Shown one piece after another: positions 32,588 through 63,646 of a stretch of DNA of 64,000 bases (position 1 is the stretch's first letter; the number at the start of each line of letters is the position of its first letter). This DNA is from a virus. Below the pieces are notes generated by a model. The model searched no databases and was not told the origin of the DNA. It was given only the letters and a program-made list of their open reading frames with translations. The translations under genes were made by a program, and so were the position numbers. The DNA is taken from the IMG/VR virus record IMGVR_UViG_3300037840_000227, positions 34,783 to 98,782 of that record; one strand, given 5' to 3'.

Positions 32588-33030
32588 TGCCGCCATCCCT
32601 TTGCTGCCGATTCGATTCGCGCAGTCTGAAAATCCATAATCATGTCCATAACCTCGCCCGCGCATCCCCTGGCGTCGCGATTAAGCTCGGAGCCTGTAAA
32701 TCGCATGATGCGGTAGCCGAGGCTGGTTAGGGAGCGATCACGCCGCTTATCCCTCGCCGCTTGGAATTGCGTTCGCTCATGGAAGGCATGGCCATCGCAC
32801 TCGACAACGATGTTGACCTCGCCGCCAAAGAACCGGAATGACACTACGAAATCAACGCGGTATCGCCCGACATGCCGCTGGGGGCGAACAGCGATCACAT
32901 CGTTGGCGCTTGGCGTCTTTTGTATGCGATAACCGGCGGCGGCTGCACCCTCGCAGAGAGCCAAGAGAAAGGCATCTTCGATAGGGCTTTCGGTCGCGCC
33001 GAGGAGTAATTTCCACTTCGTGATACTCAA
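32584..33030 (-). CDS. DUF559/Vsr-like endonuclease
   Basis: 148 residues. ATESPIEDAFLLAL at the N-terminus, then YRVDFVVSF, VNIVVECDGHAFHERTQFQ and RDRSLTSLGYRIMRFTGSEL: the E, D, E-C-D-G and terminal R-F-x-x-x-E/L elements of the PD-(D/E)XK fold in DUF559 and Vsr-related nucleases. Probably nicks or cuts DNA during phage replication or recombination. Coupled to the initiator gene. Confidence 0.7.
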   Translation of the reverse strand: MSITKWKLLLGATESPIEDAFLLALCEGAAAAGYRIQKTPSANDVIAVRPQRHVGRYRVDFVVSFRFFGGEVNIVVECDGHAFHERTQFQAARDKRRDRSLTSLGYRIMRFTGSELNRDARGCAGEVMDMIMDFQTARIESAAKGWRQ

Positions 33031-33197
33031 GGGAAGCTATCTCCGGCGTGGCGCGTTCTTTGGGCGCCCAAGCAACGGAGACTTGCGCTCAAGAATAAAA
33101 TATGCTGAAAAACCGAAGGAGGCCACGGTCCCGTCCTGGACTGATGGTTCAAGAATCAGGCAGCCGTTCGTCGCGGCTGCCTGATTCGCTTTGAAGG
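33031..33197. terminator. Gap holding a strong hairpin
   Basis: Within this 167-base gap, 33153-33187 forms a perfect 13-base stem (arms beginning GAATCAGGCAGCC and ending GGCTGCCTGATTC) with a 9-base loop. No U-run follows on either strand. It may be a processing site or terminator between minus-strand genes; nothing else was seen in the gap. Confidence 0.4.
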
Positions 33198-33437
33198 CTA
33201 TGCCGGGCTCGGCATCCCGTCAACGCGCGCTTCGGAAGCGCCTGGCTTGTCTGCCCTTTCCACCGGCCACCGGGCGAGCTTCATCTCGCCGTCGATGATT
33301 CGCAGCGGCTCGCCCGAGGTGATCCGCCAGAAGCGAGCCTTGGCATGGTAGGCGTAGTAGTCGGGGTGGGAGAATCGGTTGGCGGTCGCGAGCGAGCGAT
33401 AGTAGTCCGCCATGTGGAACGCATGCTGGGTGCTCAT
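33198..33437 (-). CDS. Small hypothetical protein
   Basis: 79 residues, rich in Tyr/His/Arg (MADYYRSLATANRFSHPDYY), with a beta-like middle (FWRITSGEPLRIIDGEMKLA). Overlaps the upstream small membrane gene by 4 bases. No family recognised. Confidence 0.45.
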   Translation of the reverse strand: MSTQHAFHMADYYRSLATANRFSHPDYYAYHAKARFWRITSGEPLRIIDGEMKLARWPVERADKPGASEARVDGMPSPA

Positions 33438-33559
33438 GGTGCGAGCCGGCCCCCCAAGCTAAGGCTTACTGCCGCGCTCACTGCCGCAACGCAGTAGAAC
33501 ACTGCGACTAGTCCCACACTCGCTATGACGATTTCGATAAACTCCGTCAGTTTGCCCAT
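33434..33559 (-). CDS. Very small single-span membrane protein
   Basis: 41 residues with a strong SD (AGGAGGACGG) before the ATG. One hydrophobic helix (FIEIVIASVGLVAVFYCVAA). Stop overlaps the start of the next gene (ATGA). Function unknown. Confidence 0.5.
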   Translation of the reverse strand: MGKLTEFIEIVIASVGLVAVFYCVAAVSAAVSLSLGGRLAP

Positions 33560-33575
33560 GATCCGTCCTCCCTAC

Positions 33576-33932
33576 TTACACAGCCTCGCGGGTTTTTATC
33601 CCATTCGCCGCAAGGAATTCGCGAACATCGTTAATGCTGCGGCAGACAGCCCATGGCCAGTGATTCGCGAGGCACAAGTCCCGGAAGTCTTTCTGACTTT
33701 TAGAAAGGACGCCGACGGCGGTTTTGATTTCCAGAAACAAGGCGCGTCCGCGCTCGTCCACGACGATAAGATCGGGGACGCCGGCCATGCCGCCCATCCA
33801 TTTGATCTTGGCAGCCTCAGCCTTTGTGCGAAGACCGCCCATGGGCACATGGAGACAAAGGCACCGGGGCGCCACGGTCCTTATGTATTGAACGACACTG
33901 GCCTGTAGGGACGCTTCGTCGTTGCGGCTCAC
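33576..33932 (-). CDS. VRR-NUC nuclease
   Basis: 118 residues, the usual size for stand-alone VRR-NUC proteins. Core: AGVPDLIVVDERGRALFLEI followed by K-T, giving the catalytic P-D...E-x-K, then a Q-K-x-F motif (SKSQKDFRDL). Family members are structure-selective nucleases for branched DNA and occur often in phage replication modules. Start is coupled to the HNH gene (ATGA). Confidence 0.8.
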   Translation of the reverse strand: MSRNDEASLQASVVQYIRTVAPRCLCLHVPMGGLRTKAEAAKIKWMGGMAGVPDLIVVDERGRALFLEIKTAVGVLSKSQKDFRDLCLANHWPWAVCRSINDVREFLAANGIKTREAV

Positions 33933-34456
33933 CCAAACCTCGCGAATTCTCCGAAATGCTCGGTCGCGAGACGTTTATAGGCTTCGTGCGCCGCCTCTGG
34001 TGTCTTAAAGCCAGATCGCTCTATGCGCCGATTGTTAATCTGAAGCCGTGCGATCCACCACCCTTTCCGGCGCCTGAAGAGGACGCCTTTGAATGGTGAT
34101 GCGCTATTAGAATTCTTCTTTCTGTTGGCCATATTCTTTGAGTTGTCGGCTTCCCGTAGGTTGGCGATGCGATCATCGCCTTTGTCGCCATTTTTATGAT
34201 CAATCAAACTAGCGGGGAGCGCTCCATAGAAGTATAGCCACGCCATGCGCGAAGCCTTATACGAGCGCCGGTCGACCCTGATATAACGATACCCCTTGAC
34301 ACTTACCCAGCCCGCGCGGATCTTGGCGCGGTGACGCCCGCGGCGCTCAATTATCCACTTGAACCACCCTGTCTCTGGATCGTAGAAATAGTGATCAAGC
34401 AGTCGCGCGCGGAGTGTCGCAATCTCGTCAGAGTTGAAATCAGATGCGCGCGCCAT
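33929..34456 (-). CDS. HNH endonuclease with AP2 domain
   Basis: 175 residues from ATG 34456; a longer frame to 34546 exists. HNH-3-type core: YRYIRVDRRSYKASRMAWLY then PASLIDHKNGDKGDDRIANL (H, D-H-K-N, N residues), followed by an AP2 DNA-binding domain (PFKGVLFRRRKGWWIARLQI). Typical phage homing endonuclease. AT-rich and inserted between a regulator and a nuclease gene with small overlaps. Confidence 0.8.
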   Translation of the reverse strand: MARASDFNSDEIATLRARLLDHYFYDPETGWFKWIIERRGRHRAKIRAGWVSVKGYRYIRVDRRSYKASRMAWLYFYGALPASLIDHKNGDKGDDRIANLREADNSKNMANRKKNSNSASPFKGVLFRRRKGWWIARLQINNRRIERSGFKTPEAAHEAYKRLATEHFGEFARFG

Positions 34457-34703
34457 CTCTCTGCCGCGGCTTAGGTATATAGCGAAAGTCCCGCTCGGTG
34501 AGCTCGATGCCGCGCTTTGCGGCGATGCGCTTGAGTATCTCATCATAGCGCTTGGGGACCCGCCCGTAGCGCCGCCACATCGCCATCGCCGGCAGAGTCA
34601 GCAAGACGCCGGTTTCCTCGTGAATCAAGCGCCTTATAGTCGCCTGTCCGTCGACTGCGAACTTGTCAAAGAGTGGGAAGCGGCCTTCGGCTTTTCTTGT
34701 CAT
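34440..34703 (-). CDS. Small DNA-binding regulator (tentative)
   Basis: 87 residues, basic. First gene of the minus-strand replication block, facing the recombination genes, the usual place for a Cro- or repressor-like protein. The middle (LTLPAMAMWRRYGRVPKRYD) resembles the recognition helix of Cro-like regulators. A promoter ends almost at its ATG, suggesting a leaderless mRNA. Pattern evidence only. Confidence 0.4.
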   Translation of the reverse strand: MTRKAEGRFPLFDKFAVDGQATIRRLIHEETGVLLTLPAMAMWRRYGRVPKRYDEILKRIAAKRGIELTERDFRYIPKPRQRDGARI

Positions 34704-34797
34704 CGGACACAGAAATATTCTCAGAAGGCCCTTGCGTCAAGTCACAGGCTATGCCTACCTATATTGAGACGCGAGAATGCTCACAGGGGAAACAGGC
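34704..34797 (-). promoter_or_regulatory. Divergent regulatory gap with minus-strand promoter
   Basis: On the minus strand, -35 TTGACG (complement of 34735-34740) and -10 TATTTC (complement of 34712-34717) are 17 bases apart. The predicted start falls 1-2 bases before the ATG at 34703. On the plus strand TATATT near 34762 may serve the recombination genes but lacks a good -35. Confidence 0.5.
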
Positions 34798-35331
34798 ATG
34801 CGGGACGGTATACCGAGGAATACCTCGCTTACGCAGGCGAGATTGCAGGAGCTTCTCGCATACGATGCGGCCACCGGAGTTCTGACCTGGATTGGCGGCA
34901 GTCGGCTCAACCGCGGCCGCGGGCGTCCACGACGTATTGGCACACGAGCGGGATTCCTGACACCTCACGGTTATAGAAATATTGCCGTTGACGGGATTAT
35001 TTATCGCGAGCACCGGATTATTTGGCTGCTCGTGACTGGTAAATGGCCGTCGCAATTTATGGATCACCGAAACCGCCGACGCGATGACAACCGGTGGAGA
35101 AATCTGCGTGAGGCGACGAGAGTCCAGAATGGACAAAACAGGGGTCTCAACAAAGACAATACAACCGGTGTCCAAGGCGTTTTCCCGAGCGGAACTAGGT
35201 TTATCGCACAGATTACAGTTGATGGTGAGCAAATCTATCTCGGTGCTTTTGGTACGGTCGAACAAGCTGCCGTTGCTCGGCGCTCCGCGAAGGAGCAGCG
35301 CCATCAGTTCCAGCCGGACGGTGGCCTATGA
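34798..35331 (+). CDS. HNH endonuclease with AP2-like domain
   Basis: 177 residues from ATG 34798 (SD AGGGGA); an ATG 21 bases earlier is possible. Core: YRNIAVDGIIYREHRIIWLL then SQFMDHRNRRRDDNRWRNLR (H, D-H-R-N, N) and an AP2-like end (NTTGVQGVFPSGTRFIAQIT). The third member of the HNH/AP2 group within 1 kb of the regulatory gap. Coupled to recE by ATGA. Confidence 0.75.
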   Translation: MRDGIPRNTSLTQARLQELLAYDAATGVLTWIGGSRLNRGRGRPRRIGTRAGFLTPHGYRNIAVDGIIYREHRIIWLLVTGKWPSQFMDHRNRRRDDNRWRNLREATRVQNGQNRGLNKDNTTGVQGVFPSGTRFIAQITVDGEQIYLGAFGTVEQAAVARRSAKEQRHQFQPDGGL

Positions 35332-36290
35332 GCGCGACACTTCCTGTCGTCAAATGGGACGGGAATAAGATTAGTCGTGCAGGTATTTATGAAAATGTGC
35401 CCATCGCGACATATCACAGTGGACATTTGTGTGTGGGGCCGTCGATATCTTCAACCGGCCTGCGAACGATTTTCGAAGATTCCGAGGAGGATTACTTCGA
35501 TAAGTCTCCATACAATCCAGATCGCGCCGAGGACGAGGAAAGGGACGAATTCACATTTGGCCGCGCACTTCATCACGCTATTCTTGGTGAACGAGATTTC
35601 GTGAAGCGCTTTGTTGTGCGCCCTGATACCTATGTCGACAAGAAGGGTGAAGCCAAACCCTGGAGCGGTAATGCCTTAAAATGTAAAGAATGGCTCAAGG
35701 AAGCCGCCGCCGCCGACCTGACTGTTTTGACACCGGCGATGCTTGAGCAAATCAAGGGCATGGCGATAAAGCTAGGCATGCTTCCTCTTGTCCGGGCTGG
35801 AGTCCTTAACGGGCTCGTTGAATGCTCGATGGTTTGGCAAGATGCCGAGACAGGCGTGTGGCTTTTGGCGCGGCCGGACGTCATCCCCACTGATAGTGGA
35901 AACTACGTCGACATTAAGAGCACGACGAGAACTAACTGGACCCCGCTCGTGCGAACGCTAGGTGAGTACAACTACCACCAACAGGCGGCCCTTGTTGCGG
36001 AAGGACATCGCATCCTGACTGGAAGGGAGATCGAGGATTTCTCTTTTTATTTCGTGAGAAAAACGAGACCTTATTCCGCTCGGATGGTTACGCTAAAGCC
36101 GGATGACTTAGCTTTGGGTGAGAGGCAGAATCACTTCGCTCTGCGGCGCTTCGTCAAGGCGTTCAATAGCGGGAAGTGGCCGGGTCCTGGGGGACTCCAG
36201 GAGGAAGTACAGTACATTGAGCTTAGCGACCGCCGCCGCCAAGAGATCGAAAATCGCCTAAAGAATGAAGGGGAGCTTACCTATGAGTGA
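35328..36290 (+). CDS. RecE/exonuclease VIII-like nuclease
   Basis: 320 residues. Core of the PDDEXK-type RecE family: an early FTFGRALHHAILGE helix, then LLARPDVIPTDSGNYVDIKS, which supplies D...D-x-K, followed by a late YNYHQQAALVAEGH helix with the conserved Q-x-A-x-Y/H pattern. It resects one strand of double-stranded ends for annealing by the RecT-like partner coded immediately downstream (8-base overlap). Likely role: phage recombination, replication restart or concatemer formation. Confidence 0.8.
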   Translation: MSATLPVVKWDGNKISRAGIYENVPIATYHSGHLCVGPSISSTGLRTIFEDSEEDYFDKSPYNPDRAEDEERDEFTFGRALHHAILGERDFVKRFVVRPDTYVDKKGEAKPWSGNALKCKEWLKEAAAADLTVLTPAMLEQIKGMAIKLGMLPLVRAGVLNGLVECSMVWQDAETGVWLLARPDVIPTDSGNYVDIKSTTRTNWTPLVRTLGEYNYHQQAALVAEGHRILTGREIEDFSFYFVRKTRPYSARMVTLKPDDLALGERQNHFALRRFVKAFNSGKWPGPGGLQEEVQYIELSDRRRQEIENRLKNEGELTYE

Positions 36291-39985: not shown

Positions 39986-41293
39986 ATGACGTTGCAAACC
40001 CAGATCCAGCCGATCATTGCCGCGCTGCAGGCGCAAGTGGCGGCGCTCACCGCCAACGCGGCGGCTTTGAATGCCGATGCGGCAAGCCTCACCTCTGACG
40101 CGGCTGGCCTGACCTCAGACGCCGCATCCGTGTCAGCGCAGGCGGCTGAGATTACGGCGACGGTTGCGATATTGAACAGCCAAATCGCAGCGTTGAACGC
40201 CATCATTGTGGTTAGTCCACCGCCGCCCCCGCCGACTGTCTCGCCTCCTGGCACGACGCTCACAGCGCCGGGCGGGACGATCACGGACAAGAAGCTGAAC
40301 GCCTGGATGATGGGTGTAACCGTTTCGGGCGGCGGCTATCAGGTGATGAAGAATGGCGTTCAGGCTTACGGCGGGACCGCCAGCAAGATCGAAATCGACG
40401 TTACCGGCTTGGTGTGGATCCAAAATCCTCAGTCGGGGACCTGGTATTACGATGTTGAGCCGGCCGGGGCGACGCCTGGCTATTGGCAACAGGCGGCTAC
40501 GGGGCCTGTGACGACGATTGTAACGCCGCCGCCAGGCGGGATGGCGATCCCCTCAGGGTGGAAGGCAGTTGTTGACGATCTGTTCGCCGGCACGAGCCTA
40601 AACCCAGCTCTATGGGGAACCGTGATGGGCGACACGCCATATCCGGATTGGAGCGATTCAGGTGGATTGCCGCCGCCAGACTCCGAGATCGGTGTTCCCA
40701 GCCAATTCGATGCGGAGTTCATGACGCCGGGCGCCGTTACGGTCAACAACGGGCTGACAATCACGGCGTCGCCAAGCACGAAATACGCGAGCCTTGGCTA
40801 TACGTGGCAGGCAGGCCTCATCAACTCGTTGGGCAAGTGGCTGACGCCGAACGGTCCATTCCGGCTCCGCGTCAAGGCGCAAGTCCCGAGCTGCATGAAC
40901 GGCGAATGGCCTGGCATTTGGATGCTTGGGACAGACGGCGCAGAGCTTGATATCTACGAGGGCGGCTATACGGCGCTGGGGCTTCCGAATCAAACCGTCG
41001 CCACCAACTTGCATACCGGCAGCAACCAGCAGCAATTCGAAAATGCTGGCGTCGATCTGTCGTTGGCGCCGCACATCTATGAGGTCGACGTGTCGCCGGG
41101 CGTGTCTGTTACCTGGTTCCGCGACGGCGTGCAGATTGCATCGACAACGAATGCTGTGCCAAACGAACAGTTCTCAGTGATCATCGACTTGCAGATGGCG
41201 ACGGGGAACGCGTCGGGATGGCATACCGTGACGAGCGGATCAACACCACAGAAGATGATCGTCAACGAAGTGCAGCTACTCGTTCCAGCTTGA
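39986..41293 (+). CDS. GH16-like glycoside hydrolase with coiled-coil N-terminus
   Basis: 435 residues from ATG 39986. Residues 1-70 are an Ala/Asp/Thr heptad coiled coil (AALNADAASLTSDAAGLTSD), then a Pro-rich linker, a small beta domain, and a C-terminal laminarinase-type beta-sandwich. The GH16 catalytic signature is present: E320-L-D-I-Y-E325 within GAELDIYEGG, preceded by GEWPGIWML. Such enzymes cut beta-glucans or similar polysaccharides. The trimeric-looking coiled coil suggests a virion depolymerase, but the gene lies in the early/recombination block away from the tail genes, so exposure on the virion is uncertain. Confidence 0.7.
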   Translation: MTLQTQIQPIIAALQAQVAALTANAAALNADAASLTSDAAGLTSDAASVSAQAAEITATVAILNSQIAALNAIIVVSPPPPPPTVSPPGTTLTAPGGTITDKKLNAWMMGVTVSGGGYQVMKNGVQAYGGTASKIEIDVTGLVWIQNPQSGTWYYDVEPAGATPGYWQQAATGPVTTIVTPPPGGMAIPSGWKAVVDDLFAGTSLNPALWGTVMGDTPYPDWSDSGGLPPPDSEIGVPSQFDAEFMTPGAVTVNNGLTITASPSTKYASLGYTWQAGLINSLGKWLTPNGPFRLRVKAQVPSCMNGEWPGIWMLGTDGAELDIYEGGYTALGLPNQTVATNLHTGSNQQQFENAGVDLSLAPHIYEVDVSPGVSVTWFRDGVQIASTTNAVPNEQFSVIIDLQMATGNASGWHTVTSGSTPQKMIVNEVQLLVPA

Positions 41294-44776: not shown

Positions 44777-45118
44777 CTAAGTCTCAAGCTTGCCGTTGAC
44801 TACGGCATCATAGAAATGGCGTAAGGCGATCTCGCGGGGGTGCTGATTTACGCTGCGCCACAATTCCTCGTTGAGGTTGTGTATGCCCGCGGCGATAATC
44901 TTGCTCGCCTCATCGAGTGTAAGTCCGGTGATCGTCGGCAGGATGACAATCCTGGCGAGCGCGCCGGCGACGGTGATGCTGGTGCTTGCCTCTAGGAAGT
45001 CTTTATCAAGCGGCTTGTTCCAGGGATGGCCCGACGATGTCGGCTTCGCTATCGGCTGGACAAAGTCGCCAAGCCTCTCGCAGATCGCATCCACGGCGGC
45101 GGTATGGGTATCCGACAT
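44777..45118 (-). CDS. N-tag array protein 1 (helical body)
   Basis: 113 residues. N-terminal tag HTAAVDAICERLGDFVQP (residues 5-22). The helical body (SITVAGALARIVILPTITGL, then IIAAGIHNLNEELWRSV) resembles that of the next upstream gene, so these two are paralogues beyond the tag. Last gene in transcription order of the array, next to the terminators. Function unknown. Confidence 0.6.
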   Translation of the reverse strand: MSDTHTAAVDAICERLGDFVQPIAKPTSSGHPWNKPLDKDFLEASTSITVAGALARIVILPTITGLTLDEASKIIAAGIHNLNEELWRSVNQHPREIALRHFYDAVVNGKLET

Positions 45119-45436
45119 TCACATCTCCTCAATCGCACCGCCGCGCGTCATGAAACCATCAAGGATGGCGAGACGATCCGAATGGTGCGCATAGCGCCAG
45201 ATAAGAGGGCCAATATCCCTAACGCCATTGGCTAACAGCGCGGCAAATTGCGACTGGGATAGTGGGGCGCCACTGAGAAGCAAAGAAAGGGCAACCGTTA
45301 CGGAATCAAGATCGGCGGCCATATCGAGCAGCCCATCGCTCGGCTGCCAGAAAGCAAGGGGGTGCCGCGTTGGCGCGATGTAATCCTCAAGGCGCTCCGT
45401 GATCGCATCCACGGCGGCGGCGTGATTATTGGCCAT
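45119..45436 (-). CDS. N-tag array protein 2 (helical body)
   Basis: 105 residues from the ATG at 45436. Tag HAAAVDAITERLEDYIAP. Body SVTVALSLLLSGAPLSQSQF and LLANGVRDIGPLIWRYA aligns with the previous member (x-x-G-x-x-x-L/I-x-x-L-I/E-W-R). Adjacent genes are separated by 0 bases. Function unknown. Confidence 0.6.
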   Translation of the reverse strand: MANNHAAAVDAITERLEDYIAPTRHPLAFWQPSDGLLDMAADLDSVTVALSLLLSGAPLSQSQFAALLANGVRDIGPLIWRYAHHSDRLAILDGFMTRGGAIEEM

Positions 45437-45692
45437 GGACAATCCCCATAAACGCCGCATCCTTGACCCGATACCCGGTCCGTACACTCGTCTTTCCGTC
45501 CATCAGCAGCCAGGTAATGGACATCCTATCGCCATCGAGACGAATCGACTCCACCGTGCCGACTCCCGGCACATAATCGCCTAAGCGCAGATCGCCCATG
45601 CAGGGGTGGTGCGCAACTGCGGCGGCCGGCGCGATGTAATCCCCGAGGTGCGCGGTAATTGCCTCAACGGCCTTGGCGTGATTGGTGCTCAA
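45426..45692 (-). CDS. N-tag array protein 3 (beta body)
   Basis: 88 residues from a TTG at 45692 that overlaps the upstream TGA (TTGA), which gives the tag its expected place: STNHAKAVEAITAHLGDYIA. The body is a small beta domain starting DLRLGDYVPGVGTVESI, with an L-R-x-G-D motif shared by other members. Function unknown. Confidence 0.55.
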   Translation of the reverse strand: MSTNHAKAVEAITAHLGDYIAPAAAVAHHPCMGDLRLGDYVPGVGTVESIRLDGDRMSITWLLMDGKTSVRTGYRVKDAAFMGIVHGQ

Positions 45693-45964
45693 AACGGAAT
45701 CTCGTCGGTTTTGACTATTGCTTCGCGAGGCACGACAATGCCGTATGTGCGATTGACGCCTATCGAGAGGTGAATGCAATCGTCAATCAGCACAACTCGG
45801 TATACATCGAGCCACTTTCCGCCCCACCATAGCTTATCGCCATTCCGCAACTGCCAGGCATGGATTTCGGTATACATCCCCGTCGGTTTAGCATTCGTCA
45901 CGCGCTCATAATCCGCAATCGCTTCGCATATTTCCGCTACGGCGCGGGCGTGGGCCTCATTCAT
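45689..45964 (-). CDS. N-tag array protein 4 (beta body)
   Basis: 91 residues from ATG 45964 in an ATGA overlap. Tag EAHARAVAEICEAIADYERV. The body has QLRNGDKLWWGGKWLDVYRV and further strands (CIHLSIGVNRTYGIVVP). A small barrel-like domain with the R-x-G-D motif. Function unknown. Confidence 0.55.
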   Translation of the reverse strand: MNEAHARAVAEICEAIADYERVTNAKPTGMYTEIHAWQLRNGDKLWWGGKWLDVYRVVLIDDCIHLSIGVNRTYGIVVPREAIVKTDEIPF

Positions 45965-46245
45965 CGCCAAACCTCGAGCGAGGCGCTGTTTTTGTAGAAA
46001 TCGCCGATAATCTCCGTGGTGCCCTCAAAGAATATTTCCCGAAAGGACGAAGGCGGCGCGTCCCTTATTTTCGTAATTGCGACAAGGCAGTCGCCAATCC
46101 CGGGCGGCGAACAGCGAACCTTATCGCCGACGCGCAGGTCAGCCACGAACACTCGGCCAAGACACCGCGGTCCCCTCTTCTCCTCGAATCCGTAATCCGC
46201 GAGGTGTGCGACAATCTCTTCGACGGCGGCGCTATGATCAGCCAC
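45961..46245 (-). CDS. N-tag array protein 5 (beta body)
   Basis: 94 residues. Tag ADHSAAVEEIVAHLADYGFE; body VADLRVGDKVRCSPPGIGDC and FREIFFEGTTEIIGDFY. Overlaps the upstream member by 8 bases. Shares L-R-V-G-D with members 3, 11 and others. Function unknown. Confidence 0.55.
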   Translation of the reverse strand: MADHSAAVEEIVAHLADYGFEEKRGPRCLGRVFVADLRVGDKVRCSPPGIGDCLVAITKIRDAPPSSFREIFFEGTTEIIGDFYKNSASLEVWR

Positions 46246-46480
46246 GGATCACCTCGACTGGAGTATGGCGGTCTAAAAAAGAACACCAGTTATGTATCCC
46301 TGGACCGTCCAACCAAAAGAGCGTGACAGTCTTCTTGCGGTGCTGGACGCGAGTGACAACGCCATAGCCAGGAACGATATCGCCGGCACGGACCGCCGCC
46401 GCACGGATCGTTCGGGGCCTTGGCTCGAGTTCCGAGATACGCTCCAAGATCGCCTCAACGGCTTGAGCGTGATCGTTCAC
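46238..46480 (-). CDS. N-tag array protein 6 (beta body)
   Basis: 80 residues from GTG 46480 that shares a base with the upstream TAG. Tag NDHAQAVEAILERISELEPR; body AVRAGDIVPGYGVVTRVQHR and TVTLFWLDGPGIHN. Close in layout to member 3 (G-D-x-V-P-G-x-G-x-V). Function unknown. Confidence 0.55.
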   Translation of the reverse strand: MNDHAQAVEAILERISELEPRPRTIRAAAVRAGDIVPGYGVVTRVQHRKKTVTLFWLDGPGIHNWCSFLDRHTPVEVIRG

Positions 46481-46704
46481 TACTCGAACTCCCAATCCTG
46501 TAGATCATGCGCCACGGCGGCGCAGGCGAGCCTATAGCGGCGCATCACGGCGTCGCTGATGGGGTGAGGCTTGGTGCGATAAACGCCGTCCTCGATGTTC
46601 TGGATCGCAGCAACCGAGTATCCAATGAGCCTAGATAGCTGCGGGCGATTATAGCGATTGCGCAAGCGCCACGTCTTTGCTTGCTCGCCGGTTGCTTGTG
46701 TCAC
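46480..46704 (-). CDS. XRE-type helix-turn-helix protein inside the array
   Basis: 74 residues, no N-tag. An HTH is visible: RPQLSRLIGYSVAAIQNIED, the Q-L-S-x-L-x-G-x-S-x-x-x-I-x-x-I-E-x-G pattern of Cro/C1-type regulators. It is embedded in the array with short overlaps at both ends, so it probably regulates this operon or its promoter. Confidence 0.65.
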   Translation of the reverse strand: MTQATGEQAKTWRLRNRYNRPQLSRLIGYSVAAIQNIEDGVYRTKPHPISDAVMRRYRLACAAVAHDLQDWEFE

Positions 46705-46913
46705 GATGGCGTATCCTTTCCTGAGTCTATGTCATAGCCACACATGGCGGCGTAATCCTTGAGGAACGCATCCCAGTCGAAGCTGGTGAGGCGGCTGCGT
46801 AAATTTAGTTGCGCCTCCACCCATGAATAGGCGTTGAATTTTGGCGCAGCGGGAGGCTGATACGGCTCCATCCGCTCTAGGATTGCGGCGACTTTCTGTG
46901 CGTGATCCGTCAT
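46701..46913 (-). CDS. N-tag array protein 7
   Basis: 70 residues from ATG 46913. Tag TDHAQKVAAILERMEPYQPP. Short body (YSWVEAQLNLRSRLTSFDWD then FLKDYAAMCGYDIDSG), helical, not like the beta bodies. ATGA overlaps at both ends. Function unknown. Confidence 0.55.
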   Translation of the reverse strand: MTDHAQKVAAILERMEPYQPPAAPKFNAYSWVEAQLNLRSRLTSFDWDAFLKDYAAMCGYDIDSGKDTPS

Positions 46914-47281
46914 AGGATTCCCCCCAGAACTCCACCAAACCAAGAACGAAGATGCTGCGGCTTCTCGGCGTCAAGCAGCGTAAGCGCCACCTTGCGCCGA
47001 TATGCTATCTCTTCAGCAGGCCTGCCGAGAAGTGTCGACACCTCATGCGCGACGAAAACATTGAGAAGGTGTATGCTAGGCCTATCTATTCCTTGACGGG
47101 CCAAATCCAGCTTTTTCTGAGCGACGATCGCTTGCATCTGAGCGAGTGAGAGTCCCGACTGCGCCCAGGGTGGCGCGCTCGCGCCCGCATCACTGCCCGG
47201 CGCGACAGCTACCGGCGGCGGCGCATATTCCTCCGCCTTGTGCAGGATTGCCTCGACTTCGGCGGCGTGCTTCTGGTTCAT
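46910..47281 (-). CDS. N-tag array protein 8
   Basis: 123 residues. Tag QKHAAEVEAILHKAEEYAPP, then a Pro/Ala-rich linker and a helical body (SLAQMQAIVAQKKLDLARQG, HLLNVFVAHEVSTLLGRPAE). Longest member. Function unknown. Confidence 0.55.
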   Translation of the reverse strand: MNQKHAAEVEAILHKAEEYAPPPVAVAPGSDAGASAPPWAQSGLSLAQMQAIVAQKKLDLARQGIDRPSIHLLNVFVAHEVSTLLGRPAEEIAYRRKVALTLLDAEKPQHLRSWFGGVLGGIL

Positions 47282-47550
47282 TTCTCTTCTCTGCGTCTTA
47301 TGAGGAGCATGGCTTCACAGGGCCAGTAACGCTGAGGCATAAAGCGCGCATTGGTGAGAAATATCATCTGGTTGTTAAAGAACTTAACTCCCAGCACTTC
47401 AAGCTCTCCTCCGCTATGCTCGTCAAGAAGCACGGTATCGCCGACTAAGACACAATCGGCGCGGGTAAGATGGCCGCGACTGGCGCGGGGTGCGCGATAG
47501 GCGTCCATCTTCTCCAGAATGTTCTCAACGGCTTGCTGATGATCGTTCAT
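47278..47550 (-). CDS. N-tag array protein 9 (beta body)
   Basis: 90 residues from ATG 47550. Tag NDHQQAVENILEKMDAYRAP; body ADCVLVGDTVLLDEHSGGEL then VLGVKFFNNQMIFLTNARFM, again with a V-G-D turn before beta strands. Function unknown. Confidence 0.55.
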   Translation of the reverse strand: MNDHQQAVENILEKMDAYRAPRASRGHLTRADCVLVGDTVLLDEHSGGELEVLGVKFFNNQMIFLTNARFMPQRYWPCEAMLLIRRREEK

Positions 47551-47825
47551 AGCAATCCCCGCTCTTTGCATTCGTTATAGGAGGGCGGGACAATTAGAAT
47601 CAGCATGCAGTGCTCCCAATCAATGTCTTTGCCGCCTTCGGTATGCGCATTAATCCACTCTCCCTCGCGCCCTATCTTCAAAATCCGTTCCTGACAAAAG
47701 GCAAGGATGTCGCCTACGCGTAAGTCCCGAGCGAGCACCGGGATACTTTCTTGCGGCGGCTGGTAATAAGGCCCCATCGCATCGAAAATCTCATCGACTG
47801 CCTTGGCGTGCGAGATGCGACTCAC
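47547..47825 (-). CDS. N-tag array protein 10 (beta body)
   Basis: 92 residues. Tag ISHAKAVDEIFDAMGPYYQP; body ARDLRVGDILAFCQERILKI and a CMLILIVPPSY strand. D-L-R-V-G-D is identical to that of member 5. Function unknown. Confidence 0.55.
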   Translation of the reverse strand: MSRISHAKAVDEIFDAMGPYYQPPQESIPVLARDLRVGDILAFCQERILKIGREGEWINAHTEGGKDIDWEHCMLILIVPPSYNECKERGLL

Positions 47826-48118
47826 GATTCAATCGCTCCGATCTTGTACAGCCAGTTGTAGATGGCCGTCGTGCGCAGGCTGTGGCTGGCCTGTTGCCAG
47901 TCGAAATTGACGCATCCGCTCATAGTGGGGCCTTCCGCGGACTGGAGAGTACGTGGAAGTTGTTGGGCGAGCCACATTACAGCGCGTCCGTAGTCGTCAT
48001 ACCTCGCAGCCTTGAAGGCGAGAGCGCGGGCCACGGGATTGGGGAGCCGAGACGTTGCGGGCGCGCTGTAATCCTGCATACGCTCTAGGATGTCCTGGAC
48101 AGCTTGGGCGTGGGTCAA
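47822..48118 (-). CDS. N-tag array protein 11 (first in transcription order)
   Basis: 98 residues. Tag THAQAVQDILERMQDYSAPA. Helical body (NPVARALAFKAARYDDYGRA, VMWLAQQLPRTLQ) with SGCVNFDWQQASH. AGAAGGAGC-type SD lies upstream (48119-48128 on the minus strand). The array promoter probably lies in or beyond the gap 48119-48179. Function unknown. Confidence 0.55.
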   Translation of the reverse strand: MTHAQAVQDILERMQDYSAPATSRLPNPVARALAFKAARYDDYGRAVMWLAQQLPRTLQSAEGPTMSGCVNFDWQQASHSLRTTAIYNWLYKIGAIES

Positions 48119-49012: not shown

Positions 49013-49915
49013 TCAGCCGAGAAAGTCACTCGCCAACTCTAGGATACGTTGCGCTGCGTCTGCCGTCGTCGCCCGTAGGGTTTCATCCTCGCGAAGCTCT
49101 TGAGCGTCATGCCCGCACAGATCGGCGCGCATGGCCTCTACAAGAGCGTCTAGGCGCGAGTCGTTGGTGAGATTGAGCGCCGGCAGGATGTCCACAAGCT
49201 CGCGGACATTATCGACAAGCGATGCCTTGAATGTACCGCTTGCTCGCTGGCCGTCGTCGCCCGGCTGATAGGCGCGGAGCCGTTCAATCATGTGGCTTAC
49301 AGCATCCATGATCCTGGTTTGCGTGTCCTTCATCGCGCCGTCTAGCGCCTGCCGATTAGCTGCCTCGATATCGCGGCGAATATCGCCGGCTTGATCCGCG
49401 TCAAGCTCGACTCGGAAATCAGCGGCGTCTGGGATGGGCAGGATACGGACGTCGAACGCAAAGGCGTCCTCAAGGTCGCTCGCGGGCGGATAATCGGCCT
49501 CGTCAAAAAGGTCGCCAAGCGAGCGCCGCGCGGCTTGAACATGCGCGGTATAGGCGCCCTGAAAATCGCGTACTGCATCCTCGAATGCGGTCTTTGCCTT
49601 GTGAACGGCCTTGCAATACGTGTCGTATGCCTTGGCCGGCAGGATACGGGCGCCGTTGTCGAGCCAAGGAAGCGTATGCTTGTAGTGCGCGGCGCGCGCG
49701 TCGCCAGCGGCAGCGGCGATTGACTTCACGGCTGTCTTGTCCACGAGCGCTTTGGTGAAACGTCCCGAGTCGCTGTTGGCGTGGTTTGTCTCCAGCGTTT
49801 CGGCCGTCGCGCGTTTGTCGAGCTTGCGCGCCTGCCACTGGCGGATGGTGAGGCTCGAAAGCATCGCGCGGGATGCGAGCAAGCCGTTTGTCTGTACTGT
49901 GGTTTGCATGTTCAT
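49013..49915 (-). CDS. DUF3150-like protein
   Basis: 300 residues, long helical. N-terminal LSSLTIRQWQARKLDKRATA fits the start of DUF3150 proteins (L-x-I-x-x-W-x-A-x-K-x-D), followed by DNGARILPAKAYDTYCKAVH and a C-terminal RLDALVEAMRADLCGHDAQE. In phages and plasmids such proteins often lie near MoxR/CobS-like ATPases and CobT/VWA-like proteins, as here. Possibly the third subunit of that complex; inference. Confidence 0.6.
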   Translation of the reverse strand: MNMQTTVQTNGLLASRAMLSSLTIRQWQARKLDKRATAETLETNHANSDSGRFTKALVDKTAVKSIAAAAGDARAAHYKHTLPWLDNGARILPAKAYDTYCKAVHKAKTAFEDAVRDFQGAYTAHVQAARRSLGDLFDEADYPPASDLEDAFAFDVRILPIPDAADFRVELDADQAGDIRRDIEAANRQALDGAMKDTQTRIMDAVSHMIERLRAYQPGDDGQRASGTFKASLVDNVRELVDILPALNLTNDSRLDALVEAMRADLCGHDAQELREDETLRATTADAAQRILELASDFLG

Positions 49916-50762: not shown

Positions 50763-51836
50763 ATGCACATAATCCAAGCGAAACAATGCCTTAAGGCCTA
50801 TATACAGGCCGGCATTCCGACATTTTTGGAAGGACCGCCCGGTGTCGGCAAGTCGGATATTACCTATCAGGTGTCCGACGAGCTAAGCGCCTATCTTGTC
50901 GAGGAGCGGGCGTCGACTCTTGAGTCTATCGACATGCGCGGGCTTCCGTTCGTTTACAACATCGGGAATCTCGCGAGCGCCCTCGCTGGCGCGCATGCGG
51001 ATAAGGTGCAATCGATCCTCGATCAGATGGAAGTCTATGCCGGCCCAACTGTCCAATGGGCTAAGCCGCATTGGCTGGACGAATTGGAGCGCGCGCCGGC
51101 TGAACAGCTTAAAATTCTCTTCCTCGATGAGCTAGTGCAAGCAAGTCTCGCTGTTCAAGTCGCCTGTTTTCAGTTGGTATGGAATGGCCGAATCGGCCCT
51201 CACAAGCTCCCGCCTCATACCATCGTCGTTGCGGCTGGCAATCGCCAGGCTGACCGCGCCGGCGCCAATCGCATGCCAACGGCCCTCGCCAACCGATTCG
51301 GGCATATCGATGTCGAGGTGGATTCCGACACGTGGCAAAAATGGGCCAACGTCAACGGGATCGAGCCGCTGTTGTGTGCGTTTTTGAAGTTCAGGCCGGC
51401 CTCGCTTCATCGCATGCCGGAAGGCAATGTCAAAGCATTCCCCTCACCGCGCTCCTGGGTGCAAGTGGCGAAGATTCTCCATGCGGCGGATGACATCAGG
51501 CCGAAGCTAATCGAAGGGCTTGTCGGCGAAGGCGATGCAGCCGAGTTGGAGAAGTTCATTCAAATGTACAAACATCTCCCCTCCTTCGCCGAGATTATCG
51601 CTAGGCCTCAGACGGTTGCAGTCCCGACTCAACCGGACATTCAACACGCTGTGGCGTCGATGCTCTCGCGCAAGGCGGATCGGACGAATTTTGATGCAAT
51701 CTGTGTCTATGCCGGCAGATTGCCGAAGGAATTCGAAGTGAGTCTCGTGAGCGAGGCGGTTCAACGCGACGCGGGCTTGAAAACGACGAAGGGCTTTATC
51801 GCTTGGGCATCCCGCAATTCCGACATTACAATCTAA
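50763..51836 (+). CDS. MoxR/CobS-like AAA+ ATPase
   Basis: 357 residues. Walker A GPPGVGKSD (residues 24-32), Walker B ILFLDELV at about 119-126, sensor-1 region VVAAGNRQ and an arginine-rich ANRFGHIDVEVD stretch: the core of MoxR-type AAA+ proteins. These remodel or load metal into target proteins together with VWA-domain partners, and the next gene codes exactly such a partner. SD GGGGA precedes the ATG. First gene of the plus-strand operon that includes the C-tag array. Confidence 0.85.
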   Translation: MHIIQAKQCLKAYIQAGIPTFLEGPPGVGKSDITYQVSDELSAYLVEERASTLESIDMRGLPFVYNIGNLASALAGAHADKVQSILDQMEVYAGPTVQWAKPHWLDELERAPAEQLKILFLDELVQASLAVQVACFQLVWNGRIGPHKLPPHTIVVAAGNRQADRAGANRMPTALANRFGHIDVEVDSDTWQKWANVNGIEPLLCAFLKFRPASLHRMPEGNVKAFPSPRSWVQVAKILHAADDIRPKLIEGLVGEGDAAELEKFIQMYKHLPSFAEIIARPQTVAVPTQPDIQHAVASMLSRKADRTNFDAICVYAGRLPKEFEVSLVSEAVQRDAGLKTTKGFIAWASRNSDITI

Positions 51837-51848
51837 GGAGGGGACGAA

Positions 51849-53006
51849 ATGACGCCCCTACAGGCTAAAGCCGCTGAGCGCATACGGATCGCCCGTATGC
51901 GCGTCATGCTCAAAAATGGATTCTTCGGCGCGCCTCTTATGCAGATGGGCATGCGCGCCGAGGACTCGATTCCAACGATGGGAGTCGACGGCCGACATCT
52001 CTACTACAACGCCAAATGGGTGCTCGATCTCAAGGGCGATGAACTGCAGGGCGTTCTCGTACATGAGGTGCTGCATATCTGCTATCTGCACCATACGCGC
52101 CGAGGGGACCGCGATCCAGAGCTATGGAATGTCAGCGGGGATGCGGTCATTAACCTGGATGTTAAAGCCGCCGGCTTCCAGCTACCTCCCGGCGTTAACA
52201 CCCCAGGCGGGATGATCCAAATACCGGATGCAGCCGGCAAGTCTTGTGAGCAAGTATACAACATGCTCAAGAAGCAAGGCTTCAAACCGGCGCCCGGTCC
52301 TGATCCTGGCGGATGCGGCGGCGTCATGGATGCAGCCAAGCCCCATCAGGTGGTAGCGCTCGGCGAAGCGGAGCGACAGGCGCAACAAATGATCCGGGGC
52401 GCGATGGCTGTTGCGCGCGGGCGCAACGCGGGCAATATTCCATCGGCGCTCGTGCGGATGATGGCCGAACTGGATAAGCCTAAAACGAGTTGGGGCGATA
52501 CGTTCCGAGCTTGGGCGGATGAGGGCCGCAGCTATGATACCGATTGGTGTCGGCCATCGCGGCGCGATCTCGGGAATGGATTTATCCTGCCGTCAACCGT
52601 CTCGATTGCGCCGGCTCATATCGTGGCCTGGGTTGATACGTCTGGCTCCATGTCGCAAGAGGCTCTGAGCGCGATCATGGCGGAGCTTCAGGGGATGCTT
52701 GACGAGCACGTGTGCGACAAGCTCACCATTGGTTATTGCGACACGCGCGTTCAGGGTACGGAGGAGTGTGAGCCGGGCGACATTATCAAATCGGTTCCGC
52801 GCCCTGGCGGCGGTACCGATTTCGCGCCAGCAATGGAGTGGACTCGCCAGAACGTGGAGCGGCCATCGGGTGTCGTGTACCTCACCGATCTGGAATGCCA
52901 CTCGTTCGGCTTTTCGCCTGGGTGTCCCGTTTTGTGGGTGCGGTATGGCTCCTATGGCAATAATCCGCCGTACGGCCGTGTTCTCGAAATCGATCCAAGC
53001 GCATGA
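51849..53006 (+). CDS. VWA protein with HExxH metallopeptidase-like domain
   Basis: 385 residues, AGGAGG SD. N-terminal part: ELQGVLVHEVLHICYLHHTR with HEVLH at residues 72-76, a zincin-type site, and a Gly/Pro-rich DPGGCGGVMD linker. C-terminal VWA fold with MIDAS VDTSGSMS near residue 260, a T in TIGYCDT and D-L in VVYLTDLECH. This is the layout of the DUF2201-type putative metallopeptidases that pair with MoxR ATPases. Coupled to the first C-tag gene (ATGA). Confidence 0.85.
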   Translation: MTPLQAKAAERIRIARMRVMLKNGFFGAPLMQMGMRAEDSIPTMGVDGRHLYYNAKWVLDLKGDELQGVLVHEVLHICYLHHTRRGDRDPELWNVSGDAVINLDVKAAGFQLPPGVNTPGGMIQIPDAAGKSCEQVYNMLKKQGFKPAPGPDPGGCGGVMDAAKPHQVVALGEAERQAQQMIRGAMAVARGRNAGNIPSALVRMMAELDKPKTSWGDTFRAWADEGRSYDTDWCRPSRRDLGNGFILPSTVSIAPAHIVAWVDTSGSMSQEALSAIMAELQGMLDEHVCDKLTIGYCDTRVQGTEECEPGDIIKSVPRPGGGTDFAPAMEWTRQNVERPSGVVYLTDLECHSFGFSPGCPVLWVRYGSYGNNPPYGRVLEIDPSA

Positions 53007-53254
53007 GCGAGAAAGTCACTCTTACGCCAGAACAAGCGGCAGGATTGCCGACCGGTGTCCAGTGGGAACTCGTGCGCCTCGTGACTGGCAGCGTTGGCGC
53101 GCTGGACGCAGTGAACTTTGGCGCCGGTCGCGCGTTCCCGCTGTATTGGAGCCTTGTACGCAAGTGCTGGTGCTCGGTAGAACCGGACTTGCCACCGTCA
53201 ATGGCAGTCTGGGATGCCATAGATGAGCTACGGGCGACTGAGGCACGCCGATGA
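53003..53254 (+). CDS. C-tag array protein 1
   Basis: 83 residues, ATG overlapping the VWA stop. Body: LPTGVQWELVRLVTGSVGAL, then AFPLYWSLVRKCWCSVEP. C-tag WDAIDELRATEARR. Shares a L-P-x-G-x-x-W-E start and a Y-W-x-P/S-x-x-x-x-W core with members 3, 5 and 6. Function unknown. Confidence 0.6.
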   Translation: MSEKVTLTPEQAAGLPTGVQWELVRLVTGSVGALDAVNFGAGRAFPLYWSLVRKCWCSVEPDLPPSMAVWDAIDELRATEARR

Positions 53255-53598
53255 GCAAAGCGCCCAAGCCTCGCAAGCGGCGGTTCGAGCACGTCAAGGC
53301 AGGGGATGTGCTGGTTACCGCGCCGTCTGAGCGATACGGTGTCAGGGGTACGTATTTCGTTGTCGTACTGCTGCGCCAAGTCGATGCGGTATACTGTCAG
53401 ACATGCGATGAGGACGGCAGCCATGCGCGCGGCCCGAAATGGGGTAGTTCCGTTTTGAGATTGGCTCAACAAGGATTCCAGTACGTTTCCGTCTGGCGGG
53501 CTCTCGCGCACCAGGAGCAAGTCGCATCTGTCACGCATGACGCGGATGCGCTGTATGAGGCTATCGAGGCTCTTCGCGAGCGGGAGGCGCGCCGATGA
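53251..53598 (+). CDS. C-tag array protein 2 (hybrid body)
   Basis: 115 residues. Body HVKAGDVLVTAPSERYGVRG then TYFVVVLLRQVDAVYC resembles the G-D beta bodies of the minus-strand array rather than the other C-tag members. C-tag YEAIEALREREARR. Function unknown. Confidence 0.6.
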   Translation: MSKAPKPRKRRFEHVKAGDVLVTAPSERYGVRGTYFVVVLLRQVDAVYCQTCDEDGSHARGPKWGSSVLRLAQQGFQYVSVWRALAHQEQVASVTHDADALYEAIEALREREARR

Positions 53599-53858
53599 AG
53601 GAGGCGTATGTGATTCTGAACGGGGAGCAATTGCTGAAGTTGCCGGGGGGCACTGGCGCGTATCACCACGCGTGGCTAGACCCGAACGGCTATATCGTTG
53701 CCGAGTCGCTCATGGGCGGTCCTAAACTATTCTGGGCGCCGATATCGCGGGAATGGTGGGAGTACCGCGAAGCGCAGCCGCCCGACGTCTGCGATATGAT
53801 CGAGGCGATTGAGGAATTAAGAGCTTCGGAGGCAGGACGATGGGGCAAGGGCCAATAG
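53595..53858 (+). CDS. C-tag array protein 3
   Basis: 87 residues, ATGA overlap. Body LPGGTGAYHHAWLDPNGYIV, then LFWAPISREWWEYRE. C-tag IEAIEELRASEAGR with a short extension WGKGQ that overlaps the next gene by 19 bases. Function unknown. Confidence 0.6.
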   Translation: MKEAYVILNGEQLLKLPGGTGAYHHAWLDPNGYIVAESLMGGPKLFWAPISREWWEYREAQPPDVCDMIEAIEELRASEAGRWGKGQ

Positions 53859-54178
53859 ACGCGGGCGATCTGCATCGGCGCGCCCTGCGGGTTCTTGCGG
53901 GCGAGAAGATCGATTACTGGGCTCCGCAGCGCGAACTTCCTAGGGATACTCCTTTTGAACTCGCCAATTGGCAGAGGGTGCAATTCACTGGCGCGCTCGT
54001 GGCGATAGACGCAACTGGCTATTACGCGCCTGTCGTGAAGATTAAGAGCCAATGGCATAGGCTATATACCTTTGGCGAGGATTGGGGCAATCGATTGGAA
54101 AATGCACCATCGGCGCCCGATAGCATTGCAATGTGGGATGCTATCGACGCGCTCCGAGCCTCGGAGGCCGGGCGATGA
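53840..54178 (+). CDS. C-tag array protein 4
   Basis: 112 residues, with an extra 30-residue N-terminal segment (IDAGDLHRRALRVLAGEKID) before the body (FTGALVAIDATGYYAPVVKI, QWHRLYTF). C-tag WDAIDALRASEAGR. Function unknown. Confidence 0.6.
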   Translation: MGQGPIDAGDLHRRALRVLAGEKIDYWAPQRELPRDTPFELANWQRVQFTGALVAIDATGYYAPVVKIKSQWHRLYTFGEDWGNRLENAPSAPDSIAMWDAIDALRASEAGR

Positions 54179-54417
54179 AAGTTCCGAGCGAATTGACGAT
54201 AGAGAGAACCGCCGCGGGCTTGCCTTCTGGCATATGGGAGTACCATCGCGAGAGTTTTGGACTCGTCGCGGAAGATCATTCCGGCGTTCATGCGCCGTAC
54301 TGTTGGAATGTCTACGATGGAGAATGGCGCGTCTTGCTAGGCCGCGCGCACGAGCGTCACGGGCCGCACATTGAAGATGCAATCGAGGAATTGCGCGCCA
54401 GCGAGGCAAGGCGATGA
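54175..54417 (+). CDS. C-tag array protein 5
   Basis: 80 residues from ATG 54175, overlapping the upstream TGA. Body AGLPSGIWEYHRESFGLVAE then YCWNVYDGEWRVLLGRAHE. C-tag EDAIEELRASEARR. Best match to member 1 and 3 bodies. Function unknown. Confidence 0.6.
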   Translation: MKVPSELTIERTAAGLPSGIWEYHRESFGLVAEDHSGVHAPYCWNVYDGEWRVLLGRAHERHGPHIEDAIEELRASEARR

Positions 54418-54659
54418 AGTTCAACGATCTGACGAGCGATCAGCGCTATTTGCTGTTGCGGGTGAGCAGCGGGCCATGGGAGTTTCATCTCGACGTCAAT
54501 GGCTATCTCGTGGCGACTCATCGCTTCTTGAAGTGGTGTCGATACTGGAGTCCGCTGCGATCAATGTGGCTACCGCTATCGTTAGTGCCGCTCGAAGCGG
54601 CAGCGATCTGGGATGCGATCGAAGAGCTTCGCGCCTCAGAGCGGCGGAACACGAGCTAG
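54414..54659 (+). CDS. C-tag array protein 6 (last)
   Basis: 81 residues, ATGA overlap. Body VSSGPWEFHLDVNGYLVATH then YWSPLRSMWLPLSL. C-tag WDAIEELRASERR plus NTS. Ends 4 bases inside the convergent minus-strand gene. Function unknown. Confidence 0.6.
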   Translation: MKFNDLTSDQRYLLLRVSSGPWEFHLDVNGYLVATHRFLKWCRYWSPLRSMWLPLSLVPLEAAAIWDAIEELRASERRNTS

Positions 54660-62513: not shown

Positions 62514-62809
62514 GCCAGGATCTTCCCGAGGCCCACCGCCATTATCTTCAGGCGCATGTCGCCCAGATCGCCAAGCTGTTCCGCGCGCCCGTCATAACGC
62601 TTATCGTGCGCTCGCCGGACGGCGGCAACGTCAAGGGCGATCTCGTCATCACCAACGATGATCCGCTCCTTGTCAGAAAGGCGCTGGACGAGTTAATTCA
62701 AGGCAAGGCGCGGAGGCTCACCCTGGACGGGCTCGGGGACGGTGGGCAAAACGACGAATCACAGACTGCGGCGCGCGCGCCAATGGGCTCGCGAGCTCCA
62801 GGAAAGTAA
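62510..62809 (+). CDS. Small hypothetical protein
   Basis: 99 residues, GTG start in the upstream stop. Two short beta strands (VITLIVRSPDG, GDLVITNDDP) and a helix (LLVRKALDELIQG). No family recognised. Confidence 0.5.
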   Translation: MSQDLPEAHRHYLQAHVAQIAKLFRAPVITLIVRSPDGGNVKGDLVITNDDPLLVRKALDELIQGKARRLTLDGLGDGGQNDESQTAARAPMGSRAPGK

Positions 62810-62822
62810 GGATCGAAAGAAA

Positions 62823-63221
62823 ATGCGCAGCCACACCGCCGCCGGGGCCAATGGCGAGCCAAGGGCGGTCGAGCCGAGTTTCGACATGCCGGATGATGAA
62901 GGCGCGCCGCCGCCGGTTCCGTCCAACCCAGATAGGCAGGCGATCATGCGCGCTCAATCCCTCGCGGCCGTCGCCGCGGAGCGGGCGGCCAACCCAACTG
63001 ATCTCCCAGAGAACCTCGATGCCGATCAGCGCGACGCGCTCCTCGCCGCGCAGCGAATGAAGCCAAAGTCGCCGGCGATGCGTAAGGCCTCAGGGCTGCC
63101 GGTTTCAGAAATGCGGATGCGGATGCTCGAGATGGCCTCCAGAGTGGCCGATCCGAAGGCGGGCCCCGCCGGGCTGATCGAAGCGGCCAAGCAGCTCCTC
63201 GATTTCGTCAGTGAGGGCTGA
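62823..63221 (+). CDS. Hypothetical protein
   Basis: 132 residues from ATG 62823; an earlier start at 62742 would overlap the upstream gene. Pro-rich N-terminus, then helical with KPKSPAMRKASGLPVSEMRM and RMLEMASRVADPK. Function unknown. Confidence 0.45.
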   Translation: MRSHTAAGANGEPRAVEPSFDMPDDEGAPPPVPSNPDRQAIMRAQSLAAVAAERAANPTDLPENLDADQRDALLAAQRMKPKSPAMRKASGLPVSEMRMRMLEMASRVADPKAGPAGLIEAAKQLLDFVSEG

Positions 63222-63646
63222 TGAGCGCCACGGCTCTCACCTACGCTCCCCCGCCGCCGCCCGTGACGATTGTCGGCCCTGTCCCGGGCGGCGGCGGGGC
63301 AGGAAACCGCGGGATCATGGTTCCGCGAGGCAAGCCGGATCCGGAGGGCGGCGCCGACTATCCACCTCTCGAAATCCAATTTGGCGATGACGACGCCTTC
63401 GAAAACCCGGATCACGCCGCCAAGGTCCGCCGGATTTGTGAAGACATGGACGGCGCCATTTCCCCTGTGCTGCCGGGCCGCATTCGATTCGAGTGTGCGG
63501 CTGCGGACCCGCCATTCTCGGGCTCCCCAACACTCCGAGGCGCGCCCCTCGCCGAGCGAATCTTCATCTATAGCGCTCTCTTTATTATTATAGGGCTGAT
63601 GACGATGGGCCTGTGGACGATCGTCAGGCTGCTGGGATTTCTCTGA
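63221..63646 (+). CDS. Tail-anchored membrane protein
   Basis: 141 residues. Pro/Gly-rich N-terminus, soluble middle with DHAAKVRRICEDMDGAISPV, and a C-terminal membrane helix (FIYSALFIIIGLMTMGLWTI). Overlaps both neighbours by one base. Function unknown. Confidence 0.5.
   Translation: MSATALTYAPPPPPVTIVGPVPGGGGAGNRGIMVPRGKPDPEGGADYPPLEIQFGDDDAFENPDHAAKVRRICEDMDGAISPVLPGRIRFECAAADPPFSGSPTLRGAPLAERIFIYSALFIIIGLMTMGLWTIVRLLGFL

Follow-up and report, generated by a model that had tools for sequence, protein, structure and literature searches.

An N-terminal helix shared by an array of small phage proteins recurs in a neighbouring MoxR ATPase

A conserved N-terminal helix in eleven neighbouring proteins

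Eleven small minus-strand genes (44777-48118), each encoding the same helix of about 19 residues at the N-terminus of its product, form an array in a 64,000-nucleotide window of the IMG/VR virus record IMGVR_UViG_3300037840_000227. The window is the whole stretch analysed, bases 34783-98782 of this 98,782-bp record, and feature coordinates are given in window positions. The helix, hereafter the tag, is joined to bodies of unrelated types, and the proteins carrying it probably serve one viral machine as exchangeable attachments. In the reading we favour, which we consider evenly poised between right and wrong, the tag would be a portable docking helix for the phage's machine of a MoxR AAA+ ATPase and a metallopeptidase-VWA protein, and its source or model would be the C-terminal helix of a DUF3150-like protein. 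The array was first noticed in a reading made from the DNA letters without database searches (the sequence-only reading), and all eleven open reading frames (ORFs) that it reported were recovered at the same place and on the same strand. Their adjoining ends overlap by 0-11 nt (mostly 4 nt).

A profile of the eleven starts, the check proposed in the sequence-only reading, readily recovers the whole set. Searched against the six-frame ORFs of the entire record, the tag hidden Markov model (HMM) finds exactly these 11 proteins (E 2e-10 to 2e-7), the next match being the neighbouring ATPase at E 0.16. The mean identity of the tag is 42% (55 pairs), compared with 7% over the following 19 residues, ungapped. 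At tag positions occupied by the same residue, 207 of 436 codon pairs are identical, with 178 expected from codon usage. Because synonymous sites are near saturation, the conservation acts on the tag peptide and not on the DNA, which rules out a recombination site or recent copying as the cause of the likeness. The tag peptide is conserved at the protein level and is old. An AlphaFold2 (AF2) model of the gene 9 product (mean predicted local distance difference test, pLDDT, 72) has a helix at residues 3-16, with strands after it.

The tag recurs in the adjacent MoxR ATPase and resembles a DUF3150-like C-terminus

The MoxR-type AAA+ ATPase (50763..51836, plus strand) matches phrog_1297 at E 7e-82 and Pfam AAA above the cut-off, and the best Foldseek matches of its low-confidence model are NorQ and CbbQ. 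Residues 69-96 (50967..51050, plus strand) form a 28-residue insertion in the loop between RGLPF and VQWAKP, and a copy of the tag, AHADKVQSILDQMEVYAGP, occupies residues 77-95. This insertion is missing in seven other phage MoxR ATPases, namely that of a related phage, IMGVR_UViG_3300043788_000049 (87 kb; hereafter the relative, with coordinates prefixed G1), which is 63% identical, and six more. The ATPase copy scores 32.5, higher than all 591,464 decoy windows (maximum 28.2), many of which were drawn from loci picked for tag-like patterns. When the tags of the relative are included in the HMM, the ATPase becomes significant (full-sequence E 5.5e-5). Judging from the order of sequence elements, the insertion loop would be the counterpart of the NorQ helix-2 insert at the ring mouth.

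The VWA gene (51849..53006, plus strand) encodes a putative metallopeptidase and VWA-like protein, in which DUF2201_N (E 2.8e-35) carries HEVLH and DUF2201 (E 5.9e-25) carries the metal ion-dependent adhesion site (MIDAS) DTSGS. The DUF3150-like protein (49013..49915, minus strand; 300 amino acids) is the third member of MoxR-DUF3150-VWA cassettes and is encoded in the same minus-strand run as the array, upstream of it. The nearest cassettes in other phages consist of DUF3150-like, MoxR and VWA genes (loci L077-L079), and the trio is present too in Synechococcus phage MinM2, several IMG/VR phages and Burkholderiales plasmids. The window protein has no Pfam match, PF11348 included; the label "DUF3150-like" rests on 32% identity to a MinM2 protein annotated DUF3150 and on homologues with sub-threshold PF11348 matches.

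The C-terminal helix of this protein, DAAQRILELASDFL (49019..49060, minus strand), resembles the core of the tag. When the C-termini of 1,114 proteins were scored with the tag profile, ranks 1-4 were all taken by DUF3150-like proteins, ending in KQAQDILDQIGAFI, AEAQAILDMMSGYL, DAAQRILELASDFL (the window protein) and SKADKILKKVQSYM. Their mean z of 4.22 was reached by 0 of 5,000 column shuffles and by 0 of 5,000 shuffles that preserve the hydrophobic pattern. The tag HMM independently listed one of these four as its top match among VWA loci, not significant. A relation between the tag core and the DUF3150-like C-terminal helix is thereby suggested. An internal segment of the DUF3150-like protein, RIMDAVSHMIERLRAYQPG, looked tag-like at first and was rejected as a tag copy, as it falls within noise.

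A further, weak internal copy, NP-DHAAKVRRICEDMDGAISP (63410..63466, plus strand), occurs in ORF 63221-63646, whose product ends in a hydrophobic segment, probably membrane-anchoring. The orthologue in the relative is strongly diverged yet retains NPDHAAKVR.

Different bodies behind the same tag

The bodies fall into two main types and a few singletons. A small beta family with an LRxGD turn comprises six array members and one protein of the relative. It includes gene 2 (47547..47825; 92 amino acids; tag SHAKAVDEIFDAMGPYYQP), which has an LRxGD body akin to that of G1 40121-40420 (body E 4e-6), and gene 3 (47278..47550; 90 amino acids; DHQQAVENILEKMDAYRAP). The other four are gene 6 (46238..46480; 80 amino acids; DHAQAVEAILERISELEPR), gene 7 (45961..46245; 94 amino acids; DHSAAVEEIVAHLADYGFE, LRVGD), gene 8 (45689..45964; 91 amino acids; AHARAVAEICEAIADYERV, LRNGD) and gene 9 (45426..45692; 88 amino acids; NHAKAVEAITAHLGDYIAP, LRLGD). 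All array genes lie on the minus strand. The second type is a loose helical set with some weak links among its members. Here gene 10 (45119..45436; 105 amino acids; NHAAAVDAITERLEDYIAP) groups with its paralogue gene 11 (44777..45118; 113 amino acids; THTAAVDAICERLGDFVQP), and the body of gene 1 (47822..48118; 98 amino acids; THAQAVQDILERMQDYSAP) has relatives in the 87-kb relative. Gene 4 (46910..47281; 123 amino acids; KHAAEVEAILHKAEEYAPP) and gene 5 (46701..46913; 70 amino acids; DHAQKVAAILERMEPYQPP) carry singleton bodies, both helical, that of gene 5 being short.

Profile comparison detected no similarity between the beta group and the helical groups, and Foldseek with a beta-body model returned no confident fold. 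The sequence-only reading had proposed at least three different bodies; that unrelated types share the tag holds, while the profile comparison gives two main types plus singletons, not clearly three or more. It had also placed an XRE-type regulator within the array, and an untagged XRE/HTH_31-like gene indeed lies there at 46480..46704 (minus strand), with a 64% identical XRE protein at the equivalent place in the relative.

A related array in another phage

Among 2.9 million viral contigs, a search with a degenerate DNA pattern for the tag turned up a single other array, that of the relative, and no more came to light with two further tag patterns; two arrays are known, and the scans found tags in this lineage only. 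The array of the relative consists of six tagged genes with differing bodies around the XRE protein, and it adjoins a MoxR ATPase and a metallopeptidase-VWA gene. The VWA proteins of the two phages are 58% identical, and the MoxR proteins 57% by blastp or 63% in a pair alignment with the gap not counted. The association of tagged array, MoxR and VWA is kept in the two phages. Whether related phages carry different numbers of bodies had been raised as a check in the sequence-only reading, and they do: six in the relative, in a differing mix, against eleven here.

In one tagged member of the relative (L009:4983-5528), the tag comes after an HNH-like segment. Both genomes contain many HNH genes, and these might be what shuffles the arrays.

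No tagged array beside a MoxR/VWA pair was detected in seven named phages or in 38 further IMG/VR loci examined, and tblastn in the named phages with the tag consensus, one array protein and the XRE protein gave no match. An alignment-based locus search with the whole array yielded 93 pattern matches, none confirmed, where confirmation relies on a single divergent member. Three candidates were set aside. The run of genes near MoxR in Bacillus phage G (L071 290-4847) encodes full-length repeat proteins (LSEDFIREFxDKVDW units), and three similar MinM2 genes are whole-length paralogues. In a group of marine phages (L080 9345-10001 and 11106-11987, and about 15 similar loci), both genes flanking VWA share a C-terminal module of about 78 amino acids, ending in EVLLEDALLGDD or NEVMLESSLLGGN, with no similarity detected across the rest of their bodies; as the two genes look like partial paralogues, they were not counted as an independent tag system.

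A second array and the surrounding genes

Downstream of the VWA gene lies a second array of six overlapping plus-strand genes (53003..54659, starting at 53003, 53251, 53595, 53840, 54175 and 54414), whose products share a C-terminal helix, I/WDAIEELRASEARR. The relative has five such genes (G1 32926-35650, minus strand). A profile of this helix (DAIEELRASE / NLFDIIEELRA) matches only at these C-termini. Codon identity over the last six residues is 33 against 20 expected, and over the helix part 26 against 32 expected; the ribosome-binding site of the next gene accounts partly for the last residues and not for the helix. In the relative, one of the second-array bodies has the appearance of a membrane-spanning segment. 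Elsewhere in the relative (locus L016), two small genes, G1 62569-62799 and 66690-66911, contain pieces like the portal/connector protein (the second with 67% identity over 40 residues), and the first contains, close to its C-terminal end, a stretch PDIFDMIAEVHRIE that resembles the C-terminal tag.

Upstream are genes for a terminase with an apparent intein, a head-tail connector, a major head protein and the tail proteins phrog_394 and phrog_376, and these head and tail genes suggest a virion of the T7-like kind. The capsid protein has distant named relatives only, the best being that of Pelagibacter phage EXVC031P at 26%. The terminase large subunit (L002:12945-15674) has 909 amino acids and a central insertion that resembles an intein (GGGKLLDINELLPTPHG...FIPTHN); that of the relative has 544 amino acids and lacks the insertion. 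A 1,232-residue protein (3145-6843, plus strand) corresponds to parts of two proteins in the relative, a giant one of 2,993 amino acids and a separate one of 388.

Discussion

The sequence-only reading had taken the tag for a docking signal for one common partner. That view has gained support: the tag recurs inside the AAA+ ATPase and resembles the C-terminal helix of the DUF3150-like protein, both of which had been named as candidate partners, and the bodies of the relative differ from those here in number and in mix. Binding of the helix to the machine, the subunit that it would bind and the role of the bodies are points that we infer from these observations.

Under the docking reading, the helix would have been copied from, or have converged on, the C-terminal helix of the DUF3150-like protein. 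The N-terminal helix of each array protein would occupy the docking site and present its own body, a small beta or helical domain, to the machine; adaptor, client or regulator are the roles that such an exchangeable protein could then have. The array would be under the control of the XRE protein, and the helix that the ATPase carries in cis may compete from within or offer a second site for docking. In NorQD, MoxR and VWA contact each other mainly at two places, the helix-2 insert and the partner's C-terminal end, and loss of the partner's last two C-terminal residues abolishes co-purification (PMC13036017). A C-terminal element as the main anchor therefore has precedent.

A bolder version, which we advance tentatively as possible rather than probable, is that the docking helix of one machine subunit has been made into a plug-in connector that an array of interchangeable small proteins, switched by the XRE protein, now carries and that sits in the motor as an inserted competitor, with a second array bearing a different C-terminal connector for the same machine. 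If true, this would be a modular adaptor system undescribed in viruses.

Several observations weigh against docking. The ATPase of the relative is without the insertion, so the copy within the ATPase is not universal, and the AF2 model of the window ATPase is poor, with pLDDT below 50 within the insertion, which could not be placed. The likeness to DUF3150-like proteins spans about 14 residues of an amphipathic helix and was spotted after the fact. The link is suggestive rather than proven because the four top-ranked proteins are homologous, hence not independent, and because the likeness fades in more distant members (MinM2, Tunturi_3, L103, L105 and the plasmid copies). No DUF3150-like gene was detected in the relative, whose record may be incomplete, and the array proteins have no significant match in Pfam, PHROG, PADLOC or NCBIfam.

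The tag might instead be a homotypic assembly helix, pairing with other tags and with the ATPase copy, as proposed for bacterial effector-associated domains (EADs); the DUF3150 likeness would then be either coincidental or one more homotypic copy. The homotypic pairing of EADs was proposed on this very architecture, with a copy in a core component and many others in adjacent genes (PMC7159879), and a helix is predicted for the tag in array and ATPase alike. We nevertheless find this unlikely, since the ATPase of the relative has no copy despite a six-member array, a helix of 19 residues is far smaller than a folded adaptor domain, and the DUF3150 ranking is left unexplained.

It is distinctly improbable that the tag marks substrates of the machine, whether as a degron or for delivery to the metallopeptidase-VWA protein for processing or turnover. 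The putative metallopeptidase domain with HEVLH would suit such a role, and the processing of structural proteins has been proposed for pairs of this kind in jumbo phages (PMC7824862). The tag, however, contains nothing with the look of a fixed cleavage site, the motor would be a substrate of itself through its inserted copy, and diverse folded bodies fit adaptors at least equally well.

About as improbable is a virion-targeting signal like the capsid-targeting sequence of T4, under which the bodies would be internal proteins that are carried in the head and enter the host by ejection. The maturation site of the T4 sequence is (I/L)xE, and an I-x-E of this kind occurs in 7 of the 11 tags, but it is not conserved, being missing in members 2, 4, 7 and 9 and present in 3 of the 6 tags of the relative. 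The form is the same in both cases, a conserved N-terminus on diverse small bodies, which in T4 have an anti-restriction function (PMC3012670). Yet no S49 or S78 peptidase was found in either record by searches that detected their controls, a negative that does not cover the T4-type S77. The head and tail genes are of T7 type, with no protease among ten scanned. Nor would a cleaved packaging signal be expected to recur inside an ATPase and a probable membrane protein, or to have a counterpart at the DUF3150-like C-terminus.

Least probable of all is an old tandem-duplicated family whose first helix evolves slowest, with no common partner: tandem duplication is the usual origin of such runs and some bodies are plainly paralogous (10 and 11; the beta group), but no profile similarity links the beta with the helical bodies, although mean tag identity is 42%, and the helix is also inserted in an unrelated protein, the ATPase.

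Comparison with known systems

The statement in the sequence-only reading that no phage system of this form has been described is wrong, as T4 internal proteins with their capsid-targeting sequence and bacterial EADs share the logic. The array departs from EAD systems and from T4 capsid-targeting in one defining test each. As here, the EADs of MoxR-vWA and GTPase conflict systems combine a copy in a core protein with terminal copies on varied proteins of adjacent genes, the copies of one lineage being nearest to one another, and have a MoxR-vWA core (PMC7159879). Terminal copies on varied adjacent-gene proteins are found here too, eleven in the window and six in the relative. In EAD systems, however, the core copy is always present and typically terminal, whereas here it is internal in MoxR and missing in the MoxR of the relative; the terminal look-alike on the DUF3150-like protein is no more than suggestive of such a copy. 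EADs are small non-enzymatic domains, and the tag, in a phage, is a helix of about 19 residues rather than a folded domain. EAD partners are usually enzymatic effectors or signalling domains; the bodies here are small and could not be recognised as enzymes. A third component of the VMAP, iSTAND or FtsH kind was not identified here. Because the tag is far shorter, its core copy is internal and none was found in the core of the relative, membership among the EADs is not claimed.

Like the array proteins, the T4 internal proteins are small and diverse, number several in each phage and share a short conserved sequence at the N-terminus (PMC3012670). They differ in that the copies here stand beside a MoxR-VWA cassette and inside its ATPase, and that the maturation site is not conserved. 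NorQ-NorD and CbbQ-CbbO likewise pair a MoxR ring with a VWA partner, and their contact places are kin to those where the tag and its look-alike occur here (PMC13036017); they differ in being enzymes of cells, in having one VWA partner each and in lacking a tagged array.

The core machine itself is the phage pair of MoxR and metallopeptidase-vWA (phrog_1297 / phrog_1314), with a DUF3150-like third gene; for this pair, a role in virion assembly with peptide processing has been proposed (PMC7824862). Such machines are common among phages, with hundreds of records that match the two genes, and the literature searched yielded no experimental study of MoxR-VWA function in tailed phages. An encoded set of tags marking the machine's likely clients or adaptors, together with an insertion that points to a docking surface, would allow this function to be probed with small proteins. 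It also suggests a viral counterpart, in a minimal form of 19 residues, of the adaptor coupling that has been proposed for MoxR-vWA conflict systems of bacteria.

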